From positions 62,001-126,000 of the forward strand of contig MEOF01000062.1 in assembly GCA_001769505.1 (NCBI GenBank): a stretch of 64,000 nucleotides of DNA, given 5' to 3'. Positions 5,991 to 48,688 of the stretch are shown here, piece after piece. This DNA comes from Bacteroidetes bacterium GWF2_33_38 (GTDB taxonomy: Bacteria > Bacteroidota > Bacteroidia > Bacteroidales > GWF2-33-38). Under the pieces are notes generated by a model. It ran no database searches, was not told the DNA's origin, and saw nothing but the letters and a program-made list of their open reading frames with translations. The position numbers were made by a program, and so were the translations under genes. How positions within the stretch are numbered: position 1 is the stretch's first letter; each line of letters begins with the position of its first letter.

Positions 5991-7943
5991 TTATTTCCCT
6001 AAATATTTAAAACTGTTAAATATGATTTTTAAATCATTGTAAATATTGTAATCTTTTGCGTAGAGCATATTTAAACGCTCGATAGTTTCATCGGAAATTT
6101 CTCTGTTTTTTATTGAATCTAATTGCGAAATAACTCCCTTTTTTATTTTGGGAAGTTTTCCATTAATGCTTTCGTTTGGAGAGTAACCAACCCAAGAACT
6201 TTCGCTGATTAATACTATAAAAATATTTTTGATAAAATTAATCGGATTTTTAACGAAAAATACAAGAATAGGAGATAATACAAACAAGCAAATCGAGATA
6301 ATTACATCGAAAAGTCGTTTGTTTCTTTTGTTCGAAATTTTTGTAATGGAGTTGAGATTAATGGTGTATAATTCGCCCGAAGTATTAATCGAGTTACTCC
6401 CAATAATCGAAAGGCTATCGGGAGATGCAATTTTGTAGTCAATATTACTTTCAGCAAGATTCAACATTAGTTTGATAATTACTTGTGTGCTGACATCTTT
6501 GGCACAAAAAATAATTTCGTTAATTTTATTTATTTGAATCATCTCGTGGAGTTGAGATATGTTTCCAATATAAGGTCCTGATTTTCCATTTTTATCGGGA
6601 GCTACGTAACCAACAATAATTGGTTTAAAATCGGTTTTCGTTAAAATATATTTTATTCGCTCAGCTTCCTCAATATTTCCAACGATTACGATTTTTTTCT
6701 TTTGTTTTTCAGAGTAAAGTTTATTTAATTTTAATAGGTGAAATGCATATCTTGAGATGCTTAGAGTAATTAATGTCCATAATGCTCCGATTAAAATCAA
6801 GGCTCTCGAAAATCGATGTTCTTCACTCAATAAGGCATACATAACTAATATTAAAAACGTTCCGACCACTATTCCTTTAACAAGATTTACATATTTTAAT
6901 GGTTTTTCATATCCGCTTGTGAAAAAAATAGATGTAATCCAAATTAATGCATAAATCGGAACCATAATGTATAAAAATTCATCGGGATATGAACTCCCGT
7001 CAGAAAATTTATACGATTCCCAATATGGTTTAACCAAGTAAATACCTATGAAAATGACAATTGCATCGAAAATAGGAAGCCACATCGATTTTACAAATCG
7101 GGTTGCAATAGCTATAAAAGCCCTGAAATATATAGCTAATTTAATCAAGAAAGTATAAGCGTTAGCATTCTTTTTTGTAAAATGCTTTTTTGCAAAAATT
7201 ATCATGGCATTGTAAAATACCATTACATAGTTTATACTTCCTTTTTTGGTGCTTTCACCTTTGTAGTGAATGATAGTTGTTTCGGGGAAATAATAATTTT
7301 TATAACCAGCTTTTGTGATTCGATAAGATAAGTCGATGTCTTCGCCGTACATGAAAAAAGTTTCGTCGAGCAGTCCGATTTTATCAAGGGTTTCTTTTCT
7401 CAACAACATGAATGCACCAGATAAAACATCAACCTCGTGAATTTTAGTTTTATCTAAAAATCCTAAATGATAACGTGAAAAGGTTTTTGATGTCGGGAAT
7501 AATTTTGATAAGCCGAATATTTTATAAAAAGCGACCATTGGAGTTGGTAGAGCACGCTTCGACTCGGGCAAAAAATTCCCTTTTCCATCAATCATTTTTA
7601 CTCCTAAACCTCCTGCATCGGGAGTGGATTCCATAAAACTTACGATTTTTTCAAAAGTATTTTCTTCAACCAACGTATCGGGATTCAGCAATAGAACATA
7701 TTTTCCTATCGATTCTTTTATAGCTTGATTGTTTGCAACAGCAAAACCAACATTCTTTTTGTTTTCGATTAGTTTTACCCACGAAAATTTTTCCTTTATC
7801 ATGGAGCAACTGCCATCAACCGAATTATTATCTACAACAAAAACTTCTGACGGAATATTTTTTATTCCGGCTTGAACTGAGTGCAAACATTGTTCAATAA
7901 AGTGTTTTACGTTGTAATTTACTATTACTATCGATAGTTGCAT
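5991..7943 (-). CDS. GT2 glycosyltransferase fused to a degenerate polyprenyl-phosphate sugar-transferase-like membrane domain
   Basis: The N-terminal family 2 glycosyltransferase (MQLSIVIVNYN; VDNNSVDGS; NVGFAVANNQ; LLNPDT; SGAFMLLRKETL; GEDIDLSYR) resembles rhamnosyltransferases. It is followed by about five hydrophobic segments, then a nucleotide-binding-like domain (KKIVIVGNIEEAERI...IVGYVAP) as found before the catalytic domain of WbaP/CpsE-type enzymes. The C-terminal part begins RLFDVIISICLF and ends DYNIYNDLKIIFNSF, like bacterial sugar transferases, but the catalytic middle (KFRTM and the Asp-Glu dyad) is missing. A TTG at 7970 would add nine residues; the ATG at 7943 fits the GT2 start better. 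Probable role: surface polysaccharide synthesis, with the second half a non-catalytic anchor. Confidence 0.85.
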   Translation of the reverse strand: MQLSIVIVNYNVKHFIEQCLHSVQAGIKNIPSEVFVVDNNSVDGSCSMIKEKFSWVKLIENKKNVGFAVANNQAIKESIGKYVLLLNPDTLVEENTFEKIVSFMESTPDAGGLGVKMIDGKGNFLPESKRALPTPMVAFYKIFGLSKLFPTSKTFSRYHLGFLDKTKIHEVDVLSGAFMLLRKETLDKIGLLDETFFMYGEDIDLSYRITKAGYKNYYFPETTIIHYKGESTKKGSINYVMVFYNAMIIFAKKHFTKKNANAYTFLIKLAIYFRAFIAIATRFVKSMWLPIFDAIVIFIGIYLVKPYWESYKFSDGSSYPDEFLYIMVPIYALIWITSIFFTSGYEKPLKYVNLVKGIVVGTFLILVMYALLSEEHRFSRALILIGALWTLITLSISRYAFHLLKLNKLYSEKQKKKIVIVGNIEEAERIKYILTKTDFKPIIVGYVAPDKNGKSGPYIGNISQLHEMIQINKINEIIFCAKDVSTQVIIKLMLNLAESNIDYKIASPDSLSIIGSNSINTSGELYTINLNSITKISNKRNKRLFDVIISICLFVLSPILVFFVKNPINFIKNIFIVLISESSWVGYSPNESINGKLPKIKKGVISQLDSIKNREISDETIERLNMLYAKDYNIYNDLKIIFNSFKYLGK

Positions 7944-38228: not shown

Positions 38229-38267
38229 CTGAAATAAATTATTGTGCAATCTAACTTGAGTTAAGTT

Positions 38268-39761
38268 TTGGAAACAAATAAAGAACACAATCATAATTAT
38301 TCTTTTGGAGAAATATCATTGTTTTTCGAAGAAATTAATCATAAACTTGATAAACTTCAACAGTATTCGGCTACAGATTTTAACGAAATTAGTCGAAATA
38401 TTAAAAATTATCACAATACAGCAAAAAATATATACGAGAATATCCAACTTATTTTGTCATTGATTAACGATGAGGAAAAGAAAAATTATCTTAAGAAACT
38501 CCCGACATCGATTAAGTCATTATTAAATATTAAATTTAATATAATTGGAAGTTTTGTACTATTAAAAGAGGCATTGTATTCGATTAAAGACAAAGTAGTT
38601 AACAATCAAAGTACAGCTCCTAAATTTTTAAAATTCAAGACTCAACTAGATACTCTTATAGAAAATATTGATAGCTATGAGCTTGAAGCTAAAGAGATTC
38701 TTGACCAAACCTCGACAAAAGTTAAACAATTTGTTTACTTGATTGTAGAGGATAAAAACAAAGCAAAGAAATTGATTCCTCTTCTTGAGGGCAAAATTCA
38801 TGAGTACTACGATAATTTAAACAAAATCATTATCAGTATTCAGTTTCACGATATTATTCGACAAAAAATTGATCACATTTCAATTGCAAATAAAGAAATA
38901 TTGCATGAACTTTCAGATTTTAGAAGTCTTAATGCTGAAAAACAACGCATTATTGAAACTAACTATGTGTATGTAATTCCTGAAATATTGAAATTGCAAA
39001 GTGCAATATTAGATCACACAAATAACGAGTGCCAAGAGGCTTTCTCTACAATTAAGAACAATTTGTCGGATGTTTTAAATAATATATCAGAATTATTAAA
39101 TTTAAGTACAAAACTTACTCATTATCAAAAAACAAATAATACTCATTATATCCTTGATATTTTTGAAGAGTTAAATAGTAATATTTTACTTTTTGGTTCT
39201 AAATACGATTTAACCAATAATCCTATCTTGATAGAACTTATTAGGCACGATATAAATATGACTTATTCAGATATTCCTGATAATCTTTTATCGAGCTTAT
39301 CTAGTGATTTGAAGGAGTTTTCAGATAATTTCAAAAATGCTTTCGAATCGAAAACAATTAATTGGGAGTTAGACGAAATTTCTGAAAAATTGTCCGAAGC
39401 CCATGAAAAATATTCTGCAAGAAATCATAAAATTGAGGATATGCTTCATCAAGGTTCGTTATTGAATATAAATTTGACTGAAAATGTAAAACCAATTATT
39501 GAACACATAAGTAAATCGGTTTTTTTTAGCGATACTATTAATGAATTGCTCGCAAATCTTTCGTCGTATTACGAAAAAACGGCAGAAGAATTTACTGATA
39601 TTTTAAGACCAAACGTTCGCGAAAAATTAAATTTCTTATATTCACTTTATTCTATGCAGAGTGAACGAGAAATACATGCAAAACTATTTGCAGATGCGAA
39701 TTCTATTGTTGATGCAAACCCAGCTCAAATTGAAACTGACGATGAAGTTGAATTTTTTTAA
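38268..39761 (+). CDS. CheZ-like candidate: helical chemosensory protein with DxxxQ motif and acidic C-terminal peptide
   Basis: I do not recognise a named family. The 497-residue protein is almost wholly helical and coiled-coil-like. At 192-199 it has QFHDIIRQ (Asp195, Gln199), the D-x-x-x-Q spacing of the catalytic helix of CheZ phosphatases, embedded in IIISIQFHDIIRQKIDHIS; related Q-F-Q-D-x-x-R-Q motifs occur in several chemosensory helical-bundle proteins. The chain ends DDEVEFF, like the acidic CheY-binding C-terminus of CheZ and like the tails of two other proteins in this operon. Start: TTG, because an in-frame stop lies just upstream and no ATG follows for over 300 codons. First gene of the operon. 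Probable CheY-P phosphatase, unproven. Confidence 0.7.
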   Translation: METNKEHNHNYSFGEISLFFEEINHKLDKLQQYSATDFNEISRNIKNYHNTAKNIYENIQLILSLINDEEKKNYLKKLPTSIKSLLNIKFNIIGSFVLLKEALYSIKDKVVNNQSTAPKFLKFKTQLDTLIENIDSYELEAKEILDQTSTKVKQFVYLIVEDKNKAKKLIPLLEGKIHEYYDNLNKIIISIQFHDIIRQKIDHISIANKEILHELSDFRSLNAEKQRIIETNYVYVIPEILKLQSAILDHTNNECQEAFSTIKNNLSDVLNNISELLNLSTKLTHYQKTNNTHYILDIFEELNSNILLFGSKYDLTNNPILIELIRHDINMTYSDIPDNLLSSLSSDLKEFSDNFKNAFESKTINWELDEISEKLSEAHEKYSARNHKIEDMLHQGSLLNINLTENVKPIIEHISKSVFFSDTINELLANLSSYYEKTAEEFTDILRPNVREKLNFLYSLYSMQSEREIHAKLFADANSIVDANPAQIETDDEVEFF

Positions 39762-39772
39762 TATCTAAATAG

Positions 39773-40096
39773 ATGAATATTACTCTTACTGAAAAACATA
39801 TAAAGAATAAACTTGTTGCAAGTATTGCTTTTGATGGGAACTTAGTTCTTTCTGAATGCAATCGAGCAAAAGAACAATTACAAAGTACGATTCAGAAATA
39901 TAAGGCATTTCAGATTTCTCTCGAAAAAGCCGAATCAATAGATTTATCTTTTGTACAACTGCTTATTTCATTTTTCGAAACAATTGTACACGATAAAAAA
40001 GAAATAAAAATGTTAAAAATATTAAATCCGAATATAAAAAATATTTTAGAAACCACAGGTTTCATTAATCAAATCGAAAAATATACCGAATCATAA
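39773..40096 (+). CDS. STAS-domain protein (anti-sigma-antagonist-like)
   Basis: A 107-residue single STAS fold: VASIAFDGNLVLSECNRAKEQLQ (first strand and helix), then KAESIDLSFVQLLISFF, where D-L-S-x-x-Q-L-L is the usual phosphorylatable-serine loop pattern, and LKILNPNIKNILETTGFIN at the end. STAS proteins act as switches that bind kinase or sigma partners. Twelve bp from the preceding gene and 11 bp from cheY. A histidine-kinase-like ATPase encoded four genes on (43953) could be its partner; this is inference. Confidence 0.8.
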   Translation: MNITLTEKHIKNKLVASIAFDGNLVLSECNRAKEQLQSTIQKYKAFQISLEKAESIDLSFVQLLISFFETIVHDKKEIKMLKILNPNIKNILETTGFINQIEKYTES

Positions 40097-40107
40097 ATAG
40101 AATAATT

Positions 40108-40473
40108 ATGGCAAAGAACATTTTAGTTGTTGACGATTCTGAAAGTATAAGAGAAGTTGTGAGTTTTACCCTAGAAAACGCTGGATATACTGTAATTAAG
40201 GCGTGCGATGGACAAGATGCTTTAAACAGAATTGTGGGAGCAAAACTAGACTTGATTATTACCGACCTCCATATGCCAGTTATGGATGGAATTGCACTCA
40301 TAAAAGAAGTCAGGGCATCAGAAGAATTTAAATTTGTACCTATTCTCTTCTTAACAACAGAGTCTCAGGCTAATAAAAAAATGGAGGCTAAAGATGCTGG
40401 AGCAACGGGTTGGATTGTTAAACCATTTGTACCTGAAAAATTATTGGCTGCAATTACAAAAGTAGTACGATAA
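40108..40473 (+). CDS. cheY: CheY-type single-domain response regulator
   Basis: A complete receiver without output domain (121 residues). Acidic pocket D9/D10 (ILVVDDSESI), phosphoacceptor D53 (LIITDLHMPVMDG), T83 (FLTTES) and K105 (IVKPFVPEK) are all present. It is the expected phosphorylation target of CheA encoded 2 bp downstream, and a plausible ligand for the acidic tails shared by three operon members. As no flagellar genes are nearby, its output might be gliding, a pilus or a non-motility response. Confidence 0.96.
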   Translation: MAKNILVVDDSESIREVVSFTLENAGYTVIKACDGQDALNRIVGAKLDLIITDLHMPVMDGIALIKEVRASEEFKFVPILFLTTESQANKKMEAKDAGATGWIVKPFVPEKLLAAITKVVR

Positions 40474-40475
40474 GT

Positions 40476-42542
40476 ATGGATAATTTTATACATAAATACT
40501 TAGAAGAAGCAACTGAATTGATTATCAATTTAGAAGATGCTTTGCTTGTATTAGAAAATAATCCGAGTGATAAGGATTCTATTGCGAATGTATTTAGAAT
40601 CATGCATACTTTAAAAGGCAATAGCTCGATGTTTGGATTCGATGTTATTAGCGACTTTACTCATCACCTTGAGAATATTTATGATTTGGTAAGACAAGGA
40701 AGAATATCGTTGACAAAAGATATTTTTGATGTAACATTAGAGTCTGTTGATCATTTGCGAAATCTTTTAAAAGATACAAAATTAGAAGACAAAAATGTTA
40801 AAAATTTTCACGATATACTTATACAAAAAGTAAAAAAAATAAATACTGACGAAGCAGAACAACGAACAGAAACCGTTATTTCAACCGAAACGCTTATTAA
40901 ACAAGAAAACGATACAAAATCATATTATATTTATTTCAAACCTTTTGAAGATATTTTGTTGAATGGAACCAATCCGTTTTTTCTAATTGAAGATTTGAAC
41001 GATTTGGGAACCTGCATGGCTATTCCAAACCATACTATCCCAAATTTATCTGAAATAGAACCTGAAAAATGCTATTCGTATTGGCATATTTTACTAAATA
41101 CAGAAGAAGGAATTGATTCAATAAAAGATATTTTCATTTTTGTTGAAGATGAATGCGAATTGGTAATTCAAGAAATACCTAATGTAAATATTTTTAACTA
41201 CGAAGATGGAATCAATAAATTTAAGCTACTTACCTCACATTCAATTCAAAAAATCGAAATTTCTGACTTAATTTCAAAACAAGAAGGCAAAGAAAATGAA
41301 AAACTTCACATTGAAAATGATGATAAAGAAGTTGAAGTTTTAGTAAGCCCTTCGGAAAAGATATTTAAACAAAAAGAAACGTCTATTTCAAGCATTCGAG
41401 TTTCATCAGAAAAAATTGATGAAATGATGAATTTAGTGAGCGAATTAATTACAGTTCAAGCTCGATTGACTTTATTTGCCGAAAATAATCCCTCGTCAGA
41501 GCTTACGAATGTTGCCGAAAATATTCAAAAGCTTTCTCGCCAATTACGTGATAATGCTTTTAGTATCTCATTAATACCATTACAAAGTGTTGTTACACGT
41601 TTTCAACGACTAGTCCGAGATTTATCGACTGAACTAAATAAAGATATTGAATTTGTAACCGAAGGAACAGAAACAGAATTGGATAAAAACATTATTGAAA
41701 AGCTTTCTGATCCAATAATGCATATTATTAGAAACAGTTTAGATCATGGAATTGAAGATAAAAATATAAGAAAAGAAAAAGGAAAACCCGAAAAGTCGAA
41801 GTTGCTTCTTAAAGCATATTATTCAGGCGTAAATGTGTTTATTCAAATTTCTGATGATGGTGCAGGACTTGATGTAGTTAAAATTAGAAACAAAGCTATT
41901 TCATCGGGAATTATCCATGAAGATACCGTATTGACAGAGAAAGAACTCTTCGATTTAATTTTCTTACCCGGATTTTCAACGGCTTCAAAAGTTACTGAAG
42001 TTTCAGGTCGTGGGGTTGGCATGGATGTCGTTAAAAGAAAAATTTCGGAAATTCGAGGAGAAGTTTCAATAGACTCTGTTAAAAATGAAGGAACTTCCAT
42101 TACTATAAAGCTCCCATTAACACTTTCAATTATCGACGGGCTTTTAGTTAAAATAGAAAATGAACATTTTGTAATTCCTCTCTCTGGAATTTTTAAATGT
42201 TTTGCTGTTGGCAAAGACGCTTTGTTGAATGCCTTTAACAATACAATTGTGCTTGATGGCGAGCAAGTGCCAACCGTAAATCTTAGAAAAGAGTTTGGAA
42301 TGATTGAAAACATTCCGGAAACTGTTCAAGTTGTGGTAGTAATGTACGATTCTCAAAAAGTTGGGATAGCTATTGATAAGGTTATTGGAGAATACCAAGC
42401 AGTTCTAAAACCTTTGGGCAAAATATATAAAAATCAAGAATTTATTTCGGGAGCAACTATTTTAGGAGATGGAACAATAGCCTTGGTATTAGATCCATAT
42501 AAAATAATTATTGAATTTGATTTAAAAGCTAAAACTATATAA
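40476..42542 (+). CDS. cheA: Chemosensory histidine kinase CheA
   Basis: All CheA domains in order: P1 histidine phosphotransfer (RIMHTLKGNSSMFGF, phosphoacceptor H44); a P2-like middle region (about 150-250); P3 dimerisation (SSEKIDEMMNLVSELITVQARL); P4 ATPase (PIMHIIRNSLDHGIED, QISDDGAGLD, GRGVGMDVVK); and P5 CheW-like (IIDGLLVKIENEHFVIPLSGI ... AIDKVIGEYQAVLKP). Length 688. It autophosphorylates and passes phosphate to CheY and CheB. The gene is 2 bp after cheY and 11 bp before cheW. Confidence 0.98.
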   Translation: MDNFIHKYLEEATELIINLEDALLVLENNPSDKDSIANVFRIMHTLKGNSSMFGFDVISDFTHHLENIYDLVRQGRISLTKDIFDVTLESVDHLRNLLKDTKLEDKNVKNFHDILIQKVKKINTDEAEQRTETVISTETLIKQENDTKSYYIYFKPFEDILLNGTNPFFLIEDLNDLGTCMAIPNHTIPNLSEIEPEKCYSYWHILLNTEEGIDSIKDIFIFVEDECELVIQEIPNVNIFNYEDGINKFKLLTSHSIQKIEISDLISKQEGKENEKLHIENDDKEVEVLVSPSEKIFKQKETSISSIRVSSEKIDEMMNLVSELITVQARLTLFAENNPSSELTNVAENIQKLSRQLRDNAFSISLIPLQSVVTRFQRLVRDLSTELNKDIEFVTEGTETELDKNIIEKLSDPIMHIIRNSLDHGIEDKNIRKEKGKPEKSKLLLKAYYSGVNVFIQISDDGAGLDVVKIRNKAISSGIIHEDTVLTEKELFDLIFLPGFSTASKVTEVSGRGVGMDVVKRKISEIRGEVSIDSVKNEGTSITIKLPLTLSIIDGLLVKIENEHFVIPLSGIFKCFAVGKDALLNAFNNTIVLDGEQVPTVNLRKEFGMIENIPETVQVVVVMYDSQKVGIAIDKVIGEYQAVLKPLGKIYKNQEFISGATILGDGTIALVLDPYKIIIEFDLKAKTI

Positions 42543-42553
42543 TACAAAAGATT

Positions 42554-43051
42554 ATGAGTGCTGAAAAAATGGAAATAAACTCGTACTTGTCTTTTAAACT
42601 TGGAGATGAAGTATATGCTGCTAACGTGAGTAAAGTGCTGAACATTTTGGAAATGACTAAAATAACAAAAGTTCCTAAAGCACCTGAGTATATGAAAGGC
42701 GTAATAAACCTCAGAGGTTCCGTTTTGCCAGTTGTAGATACTCGAATTAAATTTGGTATGACTCCAACCGAGTACACAACAAATACTTGCATTTTGGTTC
42801 TTGAAATTGAAATTGATAACGATTCATTACATGTTGGTGGTTTGGTTGATTCGGTTCAAGAAGTTCTAGAGATTGAAAAAAATCAAATCTTGCCTCCTCC
42901 AAATATTGGAAATAAGTTCAAATCGCAATTTATTACTGGTATGTACAAAATGGGAGATGATCAATTTATTATGATTTTGGATATGGATAAGATATTTACG
43001 ATTGATGATTTATTAGCATTGAAAGATAATGCTGATGTATCGGTATCGTAG
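42554..43051 (+). CDS. cheW: Chemosensory adaptor CheW
   Basis: A single CheW domain (165 residues): YLSFKLGDEVYAANVSKVLNILE, KVPKAPEYMKGVINLRGSVLPVVDTRIKFGM, VGGLVDSVQEVLEI and FITGMYKMGDDQFIMILDMDKIF. It would couple CheA to receptors. The region of best match to CheA P5 is conserved, so assembly into arrays is likely. Start at the ATG after AAAGATT; no ribosome binding site. Confidence 0.97.
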   Translation: MSAEKMEINSYLSFKLGDEVYAANVSKVLNILEMTKITKVPKAPEYMKGVINLRGSVLPVVDTRIKFGMTPTEYTTNTCILVLEIEIDNDSLHVGGLVDSVQEVLEIEKNQILPPPNIGNKFKSQFITGMYKMGDDQFIMILDMDKIFTIDDLLALKDNADVSVS

Positions 43052-43071: not shown

Positions 43072-43941
43072 ATGCAAACTCAAAATATAAATACACATTC
43101 TTCATCAAGCCCATTCACAGTAAAGATGTCAAATTCTACGTTTGATAAGTTTAGTAAATTTATCAAAGATGAGTTGGGCATTAAAATGCCATTGGAGAAA
43201 AAAATTATGCTCGAAAGTCGATTGCAAAAACGACTCAAGGCACTGAACTTTGACTCTTTCGATGAATATTACAATTACGTTTTTAGCAACAATGGAAAAG
43301 AAACAGAACTTATTCATATGATGGATATAGTTACGACAAATAAAACTGATTTCTTTCGTGAACCGGCTCATTTTGAGTTTATGCAAGAATATGCAATTCC
43401 TGAATTTTCAAATAAATATGGAAATCGTCCAATGAAAATATGGAGTGCAGGTTGTTCTAGTGGCGAAGAGCCATATACCATTGCTATGGTGTTGAACGAA
43501 GCGGTAGAGCGAAATCAACTTTATGATTTTCAAATTTTAGGAACTGATATTTCTGTCGGAATTCTTCAAAAAGCATTCGATGCAACTTATCAATTCAGCA
43601 GAGTTGAGCCAATTCCCAATACCTTGCTTAAAAAGTATTTTTTGAAGCATAAAGATCCCAATAATAAAATAGTTCGTGTAATTCCTCAAATAAGAAAAAA
43701 AACAACATATCAACGCTTAAATTTCATGGATAATACTTACAATATTCAAGAAACATTTGATATCGTTTTTTGCCGAAATGTTTTGATATATTTTGACCGC
43801 GAAACACAAGAAAAAGTTATAAATAGACTTTGTACTAAACTTAAAACTGGAGGATATTTTTTCTTGGGTCATTCCGAATCATTATCCGGATTTGACGTTC
43901 CGTTACAAAATATTAAACCAACCGTTTTTAGAAAAATTTAA
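43072..43941 (+). CDS. cheR: Chemotaxis methyltransferase CheR
   Basis: CheR methylates receptor glutamates. The N-terminal helical domain (STFDKFSKFIKDELGI, LESRLQKRLKALNFDSFDEYY) is followed by the SAM-binding domain with RPMKIWSAGCSSGEEPYTIAMVL (motif I), ILGTDISVGIL, VFCRNVLIYFDRETQE and FFLGHSESL. Length 289, normal. Receptors with methylation sites are not in this window and must be encoded elsewhere. Confidence 0.97.
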   Translation: MQTQNINTHSSSSPFTVKMSNSTFDKFSKFIKDELGIKMPLEKKIMLESRLQKRLKALNFDSFDEYYNYVFSNNGKETELIHMMDIVTTNKTDFFREPAHFEFMQEYAIPEFSNKYGNRPMKIWSAGCSSGEEPYTIAMVLNEAVERNQLYDFQILGTDISVGILQKAFDATYQFSRVEPIPNTLLKKYFLKHKDPNNKIVRVIPQIRKKTTYQRLNFMDNTYNIQETFDIVFCRNVLIYFDRETQEKVINRLCTKLKTGGYFFLGHSESLSGFDVPLQNIKPTVFRKI

Positions 43942-43952
43942 TTATTAGCAAT

Positions 43953-44828
43953 ATGATAAAATTAACTGATAAAGAATTGCTTGCAGAACTTGAAAAAAGA
44001 TTTGAAATTAATCAAAAAGCACTCGAAGAATTACGCGAGATGACTGAAAAACTTAAGTTCGTAAATAAAAAATTAGAAGATTCAGAAGCATTAAAAAGTC
44101 ATTTTTTATCTAATATAAGGAACGAAATAATCAATCCTTTTGCTTCTATCATGGCTTTGTCAAAAAATATCATGACACTGAAATCTGAAAATTTTGAAAA
44201 AGGGAAAGACATGGCAAAACATATTTTAACCGAAGCATTTATTCTTGATTTTCAGTTAAATAATATTTTTGCAGCTGCCGAAATAGAAGCAGGAATTATT
44301 GCCCCTCAAATTACAAATACCGATATCAAACTTGTGATTAAAAATGTAATTGAAACTTTTAACACTTATGCTAATCAGCGAAAAATTACACTCGAACATA
44401 TTTGCAACATTCAAGAAAATACACCTTCTGTATTTTTTAAAACAGATTTTTCTAAAATTCAATTGATTTTATCTAATTTGCTATCCAATGCGATTACTTA
44501 TAGTTCCGAAAATCAAAAAGTAATCACATCTATTTCACTAAACAATAAGGTGTTGCGAATTTCGATTAAAGATTTTGGAAAAGGGATTAACGAAGAAAGT
44601 CAATATTTAATATTTGATAGATTTAAAAAACTAGATGATAGAATATACACTTTAAACGCAGGTCCAGGATTAGGGCTTTCAATTGTCAGAGAGTTTGTGG
44701 AAATATTACAAGGTGAAATAGTTTTAAATAGCAAAATTAACGAAGGGTCGGAGTTTATCCTTACTATACCAGAATCTGAAATAAGTGATTTCGGATTTTC
44801 TGAAGAAGGAGACACAGAATTATTCTAA
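43953..44828 (+). CDS. Histidine-kinase-like protein lacking the phosphoacceptor His (pseudokinase)
   Basis: Coiled-coil start (residues 5-45), then a HisKA-like helix FLSNIRNEIINPFASI. In active kinases this reads FLxNxSHExRTP, so the phosphoacceptor His is Asn57 here (codon AAC). The ATPase domain is intact: LILSNLLSNAITYS (N box), KDFGKGINEES (G1, DxGxG), IFDRFKKLD and GPGLGLSIVREFVE (G2). Length 291, no membrane helix. It may bind ATP and act as scaffold, phosphatase or partner of the STAS protein, but cannot phosphorylate itself in the normal way. The chain ends EEGDTELF, an acidic tail shared with two other operon proteins. Confidence 0.85.
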   Translation: MIKLTDKELLAELEKRFEINQKALEELREMTEKLKFVNKKLEDSEALKSHFLSNIRNEIINPFASIMALSKNIMTLKSENFEKGKDMAKHILTEAFILDFQLNNIFAAAEIEAGIIAPQITNTDIKLVIKNVIETFNTYANQRKITLEHICNIQENTPSVFFKTDFSKIQLILSNLLSNAITYSSENQKVITSISLNNKVLRISIKDFGKGINEESQYLIFDRFKKLDDRIYTLNAGPGLGLSIVREFVEILQGEIVLNSKINEGSEFILTIPESEISDFGFSEEGDTELF

Positions 44829-44844
44829 AATCGTTATTTATTTA

Positions 44845-45315
44845 ATGGAAAATTTAACAACATACTATTTATACCCTTCGGCAATATATTATAGCAAAGA
44901 GCCTTACTTAATTACTACCGTTTTAGGTTCTTGTGTATCAGTTTGTCTTTGGGATCCTGTACTTCATTATGGCGGTATGAATCATTATATGCTTCCGTTA
45001 TGGAATGGACAAGGATTGGCAACGCCAAAATATGGAAATATTGCGATTAAAAAATTAATTGACAATATGCTTGCATTAGGTTGTCATAAATCCTCATTAG
45101 TCGCAAAAGTATTTGGAGGAGGTGAGGTTATTGATACGAATATTTCAAATTTTCAAATTGGTGAGCGGAATATTTATATGGCAAAGCAAATGCTAGAAGA
45201 AGAGAGAATCAAAATTGTAAGTTCGAGCGTAGCGGGAAAATTGGGAAGGAAAATTATTTTTAATACATTCGATGGAAGTGTCAAACATAAATTTATTGAA
45301 AAAACACAATTTTAA
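44845..45315 (+). CDS. cheD: Chemoreceptor glutamine deamidase CheD
   Basis: ATG at 44845 ([13 protein letters not shown]) is used; a longer ORF from 44785 would overlap the preceding gene. Catalytic motif [14 protein letters not shown] (Cys of G-S-C), [12 protein letters not shown] with the active His, KVFGGGEVI and [16 protein letters not shown] are as in CheD. Length 156. CheD amidates receptor Gln residues and in some bacteria binds the CheC phosphatase. It overlaps cheB by 1 bp. Confidence 0.95.
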
Positions 45316-46394
45316 TGGAGGTTGAAAATAAAATAAAAGTTCTTATTGTTGACGATTCTGCAGTAGTTAGACAAGCTCTTACCTCAATACTTGAATCAGA
45401 CCCTCGAATAGAAGTAATTGGTACTGCATCAGATCCTTTTTATGCCGCTAAAAAATTACAAACTCATGTGCCAGATGTAATAACGCTAGATATTGAAATG
45501 CCTAGAATGGATGGGCTTACTTTTTTACGAAAGTTAATGTCTCAACACCCTATCCCTGTTGTAATTATTTCAAGTTTGACCGCACAAGGAACTCAAACAG
45601 CTATCAAGGCATTAGAAGCAGGAGCCGTTGAAATTATTACCAAACCTCAATTAGATGTTAAAGGTTTTATTGAAGAATCACGTAGTCATATCTGTAGTGT
45701 AATTAAAGCAGCCGCAAGTTCAAACGTAAAAAGAAAAAAATATACTGAAAATGTTATTGCACCCAAATTATCAGCCGATGCTGTAATTCAAAAAGCACAG
45801 TCGTATAGCATGATAAAAACAACTGAAATTGTAATAGCAGTTGGTGCTTCAACCGGAGGGACCGAGGCTTTACGGGAGTTTTTAATGGAATTACCCCACG
45901 ATGTACCCGGTATAGTTATCGTTCAGCATATGCCTGAAAAATTTACAAAATCGTTTGCCGATAGACTCAATGAATTGTGTAATATAACCGTAAAAGAGGC
46001 AGAAGACGGCGATAGCGTTCTGAGAGGTCGAGCATTGATTGCTCCCGGAAATTATCATACACTTTTGAAACGAAGTGGAGCTAAATACTATGTTGAAGTT
46101 AAAGATGGTCCATTAGTTAATCGACATCGTCCTGCGGTTGATGTATTGTTCCGTTCCACAGCTCGATATGCCGGAAGTAATGCCATTGGAATTATAATGA
46201 CAGGCATGGGCGATGATGGTGCTAAGGGATTGTTAGAAATGAAAGAAGCCGGTGCCAAAACAATTGCACAAGATGAAAAATCATGCGTTGTGTTTGGAAT
46301 GCCTAAAGAAGCCATTAAATTAAATGCTGTCGATAAAATTTTACCTTTGAATAAAATTGCACAGCAAATATTAAATATGCAACACGAATTTTAA
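45315..46394 (+). CDS. cheB: Chemotaxis methylesterase / response regulator CheB
   Basis: Receiver domain (1-125) with [15 protein letters not shown]59 in [22 protein letters not shown] and IITKPQLD. The C-terminal methylesterase has [12 protein letters not shown] (S179), [11 protein letters not shown] (H205), LIAPGNYH and [14 protein letters not shown] (D300). Length 359, normal. It demethylates receptors when phosphorylated by CheA. One-bp overlap (TAATG) with cheD. Confidence 0.98.
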
Positions 46395-46405
46395 AATTAT
46401 TAATT

Positions 46406-48688
46406 ATGGACAACAAAAAAGTTCATTCATATACCAGAAAATATACGCTTCAAGGCTTTTTGTTCAGCTTGGGAGCTTATTTTATTCTTCTCCTTATTGA
46501 TTTGGATATTAATGGAATGCATTTTACATTTTCAAATGTGTATAAATTACATCAGATTAATCCATTTTTTTGGGCAATAGACACACTGCCCATTTTAAAC
46601 ACACTTGTTTCATTTTACATAGGTCGTAAAATTGGTAAAAACGTTGCATTAACCGAATTTACAATCGATTCGGAAAAAGAAAAGACAGGCAAAATAATAC
46701 AGTTTACCGAAAATCTTCGTTCGGGAAAAATCAATATCGATGTTGAAAATATTGCGAAAGACGACGTATTGGCAAAAGCCCTTCGAGATTTACAAAACGA
46801 CCTGAAAGACAGCAAGGTAGAAGAAGCAAAAAGAAGAAAAGAAGACGCACAGCGAAACTGGACCTCGGAAGGATTGGCTCAATTTGGAGAAATTCTCAGA
46901 AACGACAACGATAATATCGAAGTTTTATCGTACAATATTATCAGCAATTTAGTTAAGTATTTAAAAGCCAATCAAGGTGGGGTTTTCATCATTAATGAAA
47001 ACGAAAATAACGAGAAGTATTTTGATATGACTGCTTGTTATGCTTATGACAGGAAAAAATTTGCGAATAAACGACTTGAATGGGGCGAAGGATTAATTGG
47101 AACTTGTGCTTTAGAACAAGAAAAAATATTATTGACTGATGTGCCTGACGAATATGTTGATATTACATCAGGGCTTGGAAATGCAAATCCTCGTGCCATA
47201 TTAATTGTGCCATTAAAAATTAACGACGAAATACATGGAGTTATCGAAATAGCCTCATTTAATGTATTCGAAAAATTTGAAATTGATTTTGTCGAGAAAA
47301 TATCAGAAAGTATTGCATCAACTATTTCGACTGTAAAAATTAATATTCAAACAGCTCGATTGTTAAAAGATTCGCAAGACCAAGCTCGTATACTTGCCGA
47401 CCAAGAAGAAAAAATGCGTCAAAATATGGAAGAGCTTCGGGCAACTCAAGAAGAAGCAACTAGGCAAGGTATTGAATTTGAAAATTTTACAAATTCTGTC
47501 GATTATTCATTGATTAGAGCTGAATATACTACAAAAGGATTATTGACGTATGCTAACAAGCAATTTTTGAAAAATTTGAGCTATGCTTCACTTGGCGAAA
47601 TAAAAAATAAACATATAAATACCTTCATCGACAAGAAAAGCCACGAGTTGTTCGAGAAAATTCTGTCGGAGCTATTGGAAGGAAAATCGCATTACGAAGG
47701 CGACATGAAATACATTACCAAAGAAGGAAAAGAATTATGGACAACTTCTACTTATGTTTGTGTAAAAGATCATCACGAAGAAATTCAAAAGATTTTGTAT
47801 TTAGGAATTGATATTACACATAAAAAACGTCAAAATCTTGACTATCAAGGGCAAATTGAAGCTCTTCACCGTTCGAGCATAAAAGCAGAATTCAATACCG
47901 AAGGTCATGTTTTGTTTATCAACGATTTGTTTGTCGAAAATCTAAAATATTCGACTGCCGATTTAATGGATAAATCTGTTTTTGACTTATTGCCTAAAAA
48001 AGATATTAAAACCTTTAAAAATATTTGGCAAAATGTTGTGAATGGAAATGCATTCAAAGATCAAATAAAATTTGAAAGCATGGATAACGAGGAGCGATGG
48101 CTTCAAGCTACATTCTCTGCCGTTCACGATATGTATGGCGATGTTGCCAAAATTATATTAATTGCTCACGACATAACAGAGCAAAAATACATGGAACTTG
48201 AGGCTCAAAAACAAGCACAGATTTTAAAAGAACAAGAAGCCACTCTGTTGCAAAATGTTGAAGAAATGAAGTCGATTCAGAACGAAATGGAAAAGAAAAA
48301 TATTCTGATTGAAGCCGAAAAGACAAAATCTCTTGCAATTCTCGAAGGCTGTGTTGAAGGAATTGTTACGTTCGACAATAAAGGAAAAATAGACTCATTT
48401 AATAAGGCCGCAGAGTCTATTTTTAATCTGAATAAAGTTGATGTTATAGGGAAAAAAATAAATAAATATTTTCCGTTAGAAATTGAAAAAAATGAGGATT
48501 CAATTAAAGTTATATATGTAACTGAAGCCGAGAGAATTTCACTCGAAAATAATGTAAAATTAGAAATTTGGATTCACAACGATTTTATACAACAAAAGTC
48601 GGTATTATTGACCTTACTCGAAATTTCGTCGGGCGAAAATATTTCGTTTACCGCATTCTTTCAAGACATTGAAGTTGAGTTGTTTTAA
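46406..48688 (+). CDS. Membrane GAF/PAS sensor protein of the chemosensory operon
   Basis: Two membrane helices at the N-terminus (about 14-33 and 50-68), a HAMP-like segment (RSGKINIDVENIAKDDVLAKAL), a GAF domain (about 155-310: VLSYNIISNLVKYLKANQGGVF, GEGLIGTCALEQ, LIVPLKINDEIHGVIEIASF), a coiled coil, and three PAS-like domains (about 350-470, 485-600 and 635-750). No kinase, methyl-accepting hairpin or other output domain is seen. The protein ends FFQDIEVELF, the acidic tail shared in this operon. It may be the operon's sensor, passing signals through its coiled coils. Length 760. Confidence 0.85.
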   Translation: MDNKKVHSYTRKYTLQGFLFSLGAYFILLLIDLDINGMHFTFSNVYKLHQINPFFWAIDTLPILNTLVSFYIGRKIGKNVALTEFTIDSEKEKTGKIIQFTENLRSGKINIDVENIAKDDVLAKALRDLQNDLKDSKVEEAKRRKEDAQRNWTSEGLAQFGEILRNDNDNIEVLSYNIISNLVKYLKANQGGVFIINENENNEKYFDMTACYAYDRKKFANKRLEWGEGLIGTCALEQEKILLTDVPDEYVDITSGLGNANPRAILIVPLKINDEIHGVIEIASFNVFEKFEIDFVEKISESIASTISTVKINIQTARLLKDSQDQARILADQEEKMRQNMEELRATQEEATRQGIEFENFTNSVDYSLIRAEYTTKGLLTYANKQFLKNLSYASLGEIKNKHINTFIDKKSHELFEKILSELLEGKSHYEGDMKYITKEGKELWTTSTYVCVKDHHEEIQKILYLGIDITHKKRQNLDYQGQIEALHRSSIKAEFNTEGHVLFINDLFVENLKYSTADLMDKSVFDLLPKKDIKTFKNIWQNVVNGNAFKDQIKFESMDNEERWLQATFSAVHDMYGDVAKIILIAHDITEQKYMELEAQKQAQILKEQEATLLQNVEEMKSIQNEMEKKNILIEAEKTKSLAILEGCVEGIVTFDNKGKIDSFNKAAESIFNLNKVDVIGKKINKYFPLEIEKNEDSIKVIYVTEAERISLENNVKLEIWIHNDFIQQKSVLLTLLEISSGENISFTAFFQDIEVELF

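Follow-up and report, generated by a model that had tools for sequence, protein, structure and literature searches.

CheY-P must be switched off, and to our knowledge there are three known families of CheY-P phosphatases: CheZ, CheC and CheX. CheZ is built from a single helical hairpin that dimerises to a four-helix bundle, with an Asp and a Gln pointing outward against CheY, and it carries a C-terminal helix that binds CheY. In the chemistry of CheZ, D143 orients the active-site lysine of CheY and Q147 orients the attacking water. The DxxxQ CheY phosphatase CheT of S. meliloti and Agrobacterium was missed by sequence searches; it is an alpha-proteobacterial protein that binds CheR and was reported to look CheZ-like in AlphaFold (PMC12654446).

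The stretch of DNA that we analysed (the window, 64,000 nucleotides) contains a chemotaxis-like cluster, and an initial annotation had proposed that its first gene belongs to an unrecognised family of CheZ-type phosphatases. We re-read this gene (38268-39761, + strand) and it encodes an all-helical protein of 497 aa, as described. Between an in-frame TAA six bases upstream (38262-38264) and the TTG at 38268 there is no other start codon, and the first in-frame ATG comes only at residue 331, which bears out the TTG start that had been assigned. The position of the TTG also agrees with the N-termini of relatives, which mostly begin with ATG. The genes that follow on the + strand encode a STAS-like protein (39773-40096, weak PF13466), a CheY-type receiver that is the proposed substrate (40108-40473), CheA (40476-42542), CheW (42554-43051), the methyltransferase CheR (43072-43941), a HisKA/HATPase protein that lacks the phospho-His (43953-44828), CheD (44848-45315), CheB (45315-46394) and, as the last gene of the cluster, a GAF-PAS-PAS-PAS sensor with no recognisable output domain (46406-48688). 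The order (receiver)-family gene-STAS-CheY-CheA-CheW-CheR-HK-CheD-CheB-GAF/PAS recurs in about 60 loci, so the gene was rightly placed at the head of a conserved cluster, and clusters headed by it occur in gut and sediment Bacteroidota.

Searches with the whole protein found homologues in 13 of 60 relatives, and a motif-seeded scan of genome contigs brought in 80 more loci, which belong to Bacteroidales and related Bacteroidota. The family is about 575-620 aa in length, and the window protein is a shortened member. We found no paper on the family in the literature we searched, and because most subscription journals lie outside that literature, its novelty is provisional.

The initial annotation had pointed to QFHDIIRQ (residues 192-199), in which D195 (38850-38852) and Q199 (38862-38864) have the D-x-x-x-Q spacing of CheZ. 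The pair is indeed present and is invariant among relatives. It lies in a catalytic-type motif, QFHDIIRQKIDH (38841-38876, + strand; residues 192-203), where it aligns with D143 and Q147 of E. coli CheZ. A bare D-x-x-x-Q is at chance level in this protein, as 0.93 are expected from composition and three are present (D28, D195 and D391); D195/Q199 is conserved in 52 of 52 sequences (alignment A2), and the pairs at D28 and D391 are kept in 1 of 52. In this otherwise divergent protein, conservation peaks in the 12-mer that begins with the motif's first Gln, whose mean entropy is 0.40 bit against a median of 2.43 in an alignment of 13 sequences (A1) collected by whole-protein similarity and not by the motif. 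Across 82 members, Q192, D195, I196, Q199, H203, Y461 and the final Phe are invariant and the Glu at -3 is 99% conserved. The motif takes the form [FY]xDI(I/T)RQ in the twelve homologues that we read, and in more from a search of the phylum. Since the contig scan was seeded on the motif, conservation in its 80 loci is partly by construction; we base our argument on the members that whole-protein searches found, and the pair is invariant in those among them whose motif was read. Such a conserved motif could act on a receiver other than the operon CheY, or could mediate binding only.

A profile search against CheZ had been suggested as a check, and it gave a match over the motif with both residues in register. 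We built the profile (A3) on 17 CheZ sequences from the same GTDB phylum, and it scores 18.5 bits over residues 125-215 of the window protein, compared with 0.3 bits for the reversed protein. It matches 49 of the 82 members (45 of the 49 in register) and none of the 82 when they are reversed. Most of its other matches are MCPs, and these align elsewhere in the profile. When the family was aligned with E. coli CheZ in MAFFT, the only invariant columns were those of I135, D143 and Q147. Distant members have weak matches to Pfam CheZ over the motif (E 0.24 and 0.7), and the window protein has no match to PF04344, falling below its gathering cut-off. A profile-profile comparison with hhalign aligned 59 columns over the motif in the same register (P 0.0016), with a probability of only 16%. 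The reverse test, in which the family profile is run on CheZ, was dropped because reversed family sequences reach 25.5 bits, level with CheZ itself at 25.6 bits; helical proteins inflate such scores, and the family profile also matches reversed sequences. We consider the profile matches and the alignment good evidence for a CheZ-type catalytic helix in the window protein. Common descent with CheZ beyond this helix is not proven because of the low hhalign probability, and convergence on the D-x-x-x-Q motif is possible.

No family had been recognised for the protein in the initial annotation. This stands to the extent that no Pfam or NCBIfam family scores above its cut-off and a sequence search of the PDB gives no relative over threshold; the protein is not an orphan, however, as distant members of its family carry MCP signalling domains. 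The family profile finds three such members, L099, L100 and L101 (1.6e-47, 1.3e-43 and 7.8e-21), which have two MCP hairpin tips, LRMLGISTRIESARLG...GF and ELIALNARVKAARTG, on either side of QFHDITRQ (alignment A7) and end in ELF. L099 (8.8e-16) and L101 are above the cut-off of Pfam MCPsignal (PF00015). The window protein has no PF00015 match over that cut-off and no direct match to a profile of its own genome's MCPs, so the argument for MCP descent rests on the distant members. As these carry MCP domains, we read the window protein as a degenerate member of a receptor-derived family, which appears to share descent with MCP signalling hairpins transitively, via L099-L101. Apart from one weak unrelated match, a plasmid search with L099 gave nothing but ordinary MCP matches. 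Separately, we observed two receptors (L102:1330-2688 and L103:1318-2694) in which a full MCP signal domain is followed by a CheZ-like IQFQDVLRQKID helix and an RIELF tail. Both adjoin CheY, and L102 also adjoins CheA; these receptors may carry phosphatase activity.

The structure models give a picture of two hairpins. The first helical hairpin (38472-38840, + strand; residues 69-191) has a predicted turn at about 112-118 and would be the remnant of hairpin tip 1 of the distant members; its pLDDT is about 62-88 and its boundaries are approximate. The second helical region (38934-39584, + strand; residues 223-439), with a pLDDT partly below 70, would be the counterpart of tip 2, the tip itself being lost here. 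It is followed by YSMQSEREIH (39648-39677, + strand; residues 461-470), the family's conserved YTMxSERxIH element. We modelled the window protein (AlphaFold pLDDT 73, pTM 0.61) and the member from Perlabentimonas gracilis, L061 (pLDDT 80, pTM 0.62), and both models have long helices and hairpin turns, with a helix interrupted at the invariant Gln that precedes the Asp. The first hairpin is shorter in the window protein than in L061, by roughly 25 and 29 residues in its two arms as counted on the two models, and similar shortening of both arms is what an antiparallel hairpin should show. Searching the PDB with the two models in Foldseek returned only generic coiled-coil matches, none with E <= 0.001, so the fold is neutral on the likeness to CheZ.

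Descent from MCPs would also suit a soluble receptor-like or scaffold protein that has no phosphatase activity, couples CheA and CheW, offers its tail to CheR and CheB, and uses D-x-x-x-Q as an interface, for example for binding a receiver. No MCP gene lies in the cluster, and the tail resembles the pentapeptides of the genome's MCPs (NDFETF and YDFEKF). However, the window protein and its close relatives have only degenerate versions of the tips with which MCPs contact CheA and CheW, the genome already has eight MCPs, and the D/Q motif is the most strictly kept part of the protein. We consider this scaffold unlikely, though it is the alternative that we take most seriously.

The C-terminus DDEVEFF (39738-39758, + strand) is as the initial annotation gave it, and almost all family members keep its final Phe and the Glu at -3. 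AlphaFold predicts that the tail is disordered. It had been likened to the CheY-binding end of CheZ, and it is acidic and ends in Phe, but its likeness to MCP docking pentapeptides is no less marked. Five of the eight MCPs of the window genome end in NDFETF, YDFEKF, NDFEKF or SEFDKF; these are CheR-docking pentapeptides of the class 34H type, which in Geobacter reads EFEKF (PMC2577667). The family tail shares Glu -3 and Phe -1 with the pentapeptides of the genome's MCPs and differs in having V/I/L, not an aromatic residue, at -4. The consensus for CheR docking has aromatic residues at positions 2 and 5 of the last five (PMC7390727); the family has the Phe at position 5 and V/I/L at position 2, and so departs from it. 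In the operon CheR, compared with Salmonella CheR, R197 is kept, R187 is Lys, G188, G190, G194 and Q182 are changed and the loop is gap-free. We also noticed that the HisKA/HATPase protein ends in GDTELF (44808-44825) and the GAF-PAS protein in DIEVELF (48668-48685), both similar to the tail of the window protein, and that many HK homologues end in EETF, EEIF or PDTF. The cluster as a whole may share a C-terminal docking motif. Because the tail is common to the HK and the GAF-PAS protein and resembles MCP pentapeptides, binding to CheY is only one option for it.

The window genome (99% complete) has one CheA, five CheW and eight MCPs over cut-off. The initial annotation had noted that CheC, CheX and classical CheZ are lacking from the cluster, and profile searches of the whole genome extend this, with none of the three over cut-off. 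FliM is also absent from this genome, so the output is not the flagellar motor. Of 296 genomes sampled from the GTDB phylum, 44 have CheZ; all of these are listed as 'same phylum', and none of the 44 belongs to the class or order of the window genome. We looked at co-occurrence with CheA in 59 genomes of the same order: 16 have CheA, 12 have a full-length family member, and all 12 of these are CheA-positive. Full-length members are thus present in 12 of the 16 CheA genomes, and the chance of the observed co-occurrence is about 2e-9 (1.6e-9); genome G033, with only a weak partial match (1.4e-7), was left out of the full-length count. In rumen Bacteroidales (L018-L034), we observed that the family gene stands apart from CheA, STAS and CheY in the fetched stretch, with CheW nearby in some. 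Two genomes, G283 and G302, have a distant family member together with CheZ.

In many relatives the family gene is immediately preceded by one or two stand-alone receivers. In L061, we noticed between two such receivers an ORF of ~231 aa (6638-7330) that resembles a cyclic-nucleotide-binding (Crp-type) regulator, judging from a reading of its sequence alone. These orphan receivers of most relatives, or CheB, might be the true substrate of a CheZ-type phosphatase in place of the operon CheY, and S. meliloti CheT provides a case of a phosphatase that tells two CheYs apart (PMC12654446). The upstream receivers are absent 5' of the gene in the window, yet the gene and its motif are kept there beside STAS, CheY and CheA, and we give another receiver a rather small chance.

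The claim that the operon lacks another obvious CheY-P sink stands for CheC, CheX and CheZ, but it overlooked a possible one, the HisKA/HATPase protein at 43953-44828 (+ strand). HisKA kinases have H-E-x-x-T/N at the site where this protein has N57-E-I-I-N61 (codons 44121-44135). Asn replaces the phospho-His in 35 of 35 operon HK homologues, and the distal Asn of E-x-x-N is retained in all 35. Work on CrdS found this Thr/Asn to be the only residue needed exclusively for the phosphatase activity of HisKA (PMC3510030). The operon HK has probably lost its kinase activity and could serve as a phosphatase for CheY or another receiver, and as a second candidate sink it weakens the argument from absence. 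Taken further, these conserved substitutions could make it the main sink for CheY-P in the operon, with the family protein purely structural. That would leave the invariant D/Q motif unexplained, and both proteins could act; of the alternatives, we find this one the most improbable.

We think it reasonably likely that the window protein is a CheZ-type CheY-P phosphatase on a receptor-derived scaffold. The invariance of the D/Q pair, the in-register profile match, the co-occurrence with CheA and the lack of CheZ, CheC and CheX all favour the phosphatase family that had been proposed, which we revise in three respects: it is MCP-related and not an orphan, its tail is ambiguous, and the operon has a second candidate sink. 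Against our reading stand this second candidate, the presence of CheZ in G283 and G302, and the rumen genes that lie apart from CheA. The family is built of two long MCP-derived helical hairpins, the first of which carries the invariant D-x-x-x-Q helix at its base. In the mechanism we propose, the Asp would orient the active-site lysine of CheY and the Gln the attacking water, as in CheZ, and the hairpins might dimerise or join the CheA/CheW/MCP array, which would hold the phosphatase near the kinase. The acidic tail would dock a partner from the cluster, which could be CheY, by analogy with CheZ, or CheR, by analogy with MCPs and with what is reported for CheT. The family would thereby supply signal termination in bacteria that have CheA and lack CheZ, CheC and CheX.

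A genome with one CheA and eight receptors and none of these phosphatases needs an off-switch for CheY-P. As the protein has CheZ's two catalytic residues and no known phosphatase is present, it may be the missing off-switch where every known one is lacking. We can also imagine, more speculatively and with considerable doubt, a receptor lineage turned phosphatase in non-flagellated Bacteroidota, in which a tandem hairpin in or near the array controls the CheZ-type helix, regulated dephosphorylation and CheA together set signal strength, and the kinase-dead HisKA phosphatase of the same operon works alongside. If true, a receptor-built phosphatase would be an unusual evolutionary path, and it would offer a way into chemosensory output in bacteria that have no flagella.

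Compared with known systems, the family is like CheZ (PF04344) in having a helical hairpin that leads into an LQxxDIxxQ helix with the D/Q pair in register, a gene that neighbours CheY, and an acidic tail with hydrophobic residues and a terminal Phe. It differs in size and build, with 497-620 aa, two hairpins and MCP ancestry where CheZ has about 214-340 aa and one hairpin. Unlike related CheZ proteins, it has no DDIDALF-type pattern in the tail, and AxxFQ is kept only in part. CheZ ranges over Proteobacteria and several non-Bacteroidia lineages of GTDB Bacteroidota. CheC and CheX (PF04509, PF13690) have the pathway role that we propose for the family, with a different fold and an ExxN motif. 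The family is like MCPs (PF00015) in that L099 and L101 pass the cut-off and in its two hairpin tips and E-x-F ending; unlike MCPs, it is soluble and has tandem hairpins with a CheZ-like helix between them, and the tips are degenerate in Bacteroidales members. CheT, which we compared by its description, is a precedent for a DxxxQ CheY phosphatase that lies outside CheZ by sequence and is encoded in a che cluster, and no link to MCPs is mentioned for it (PMC12654446).
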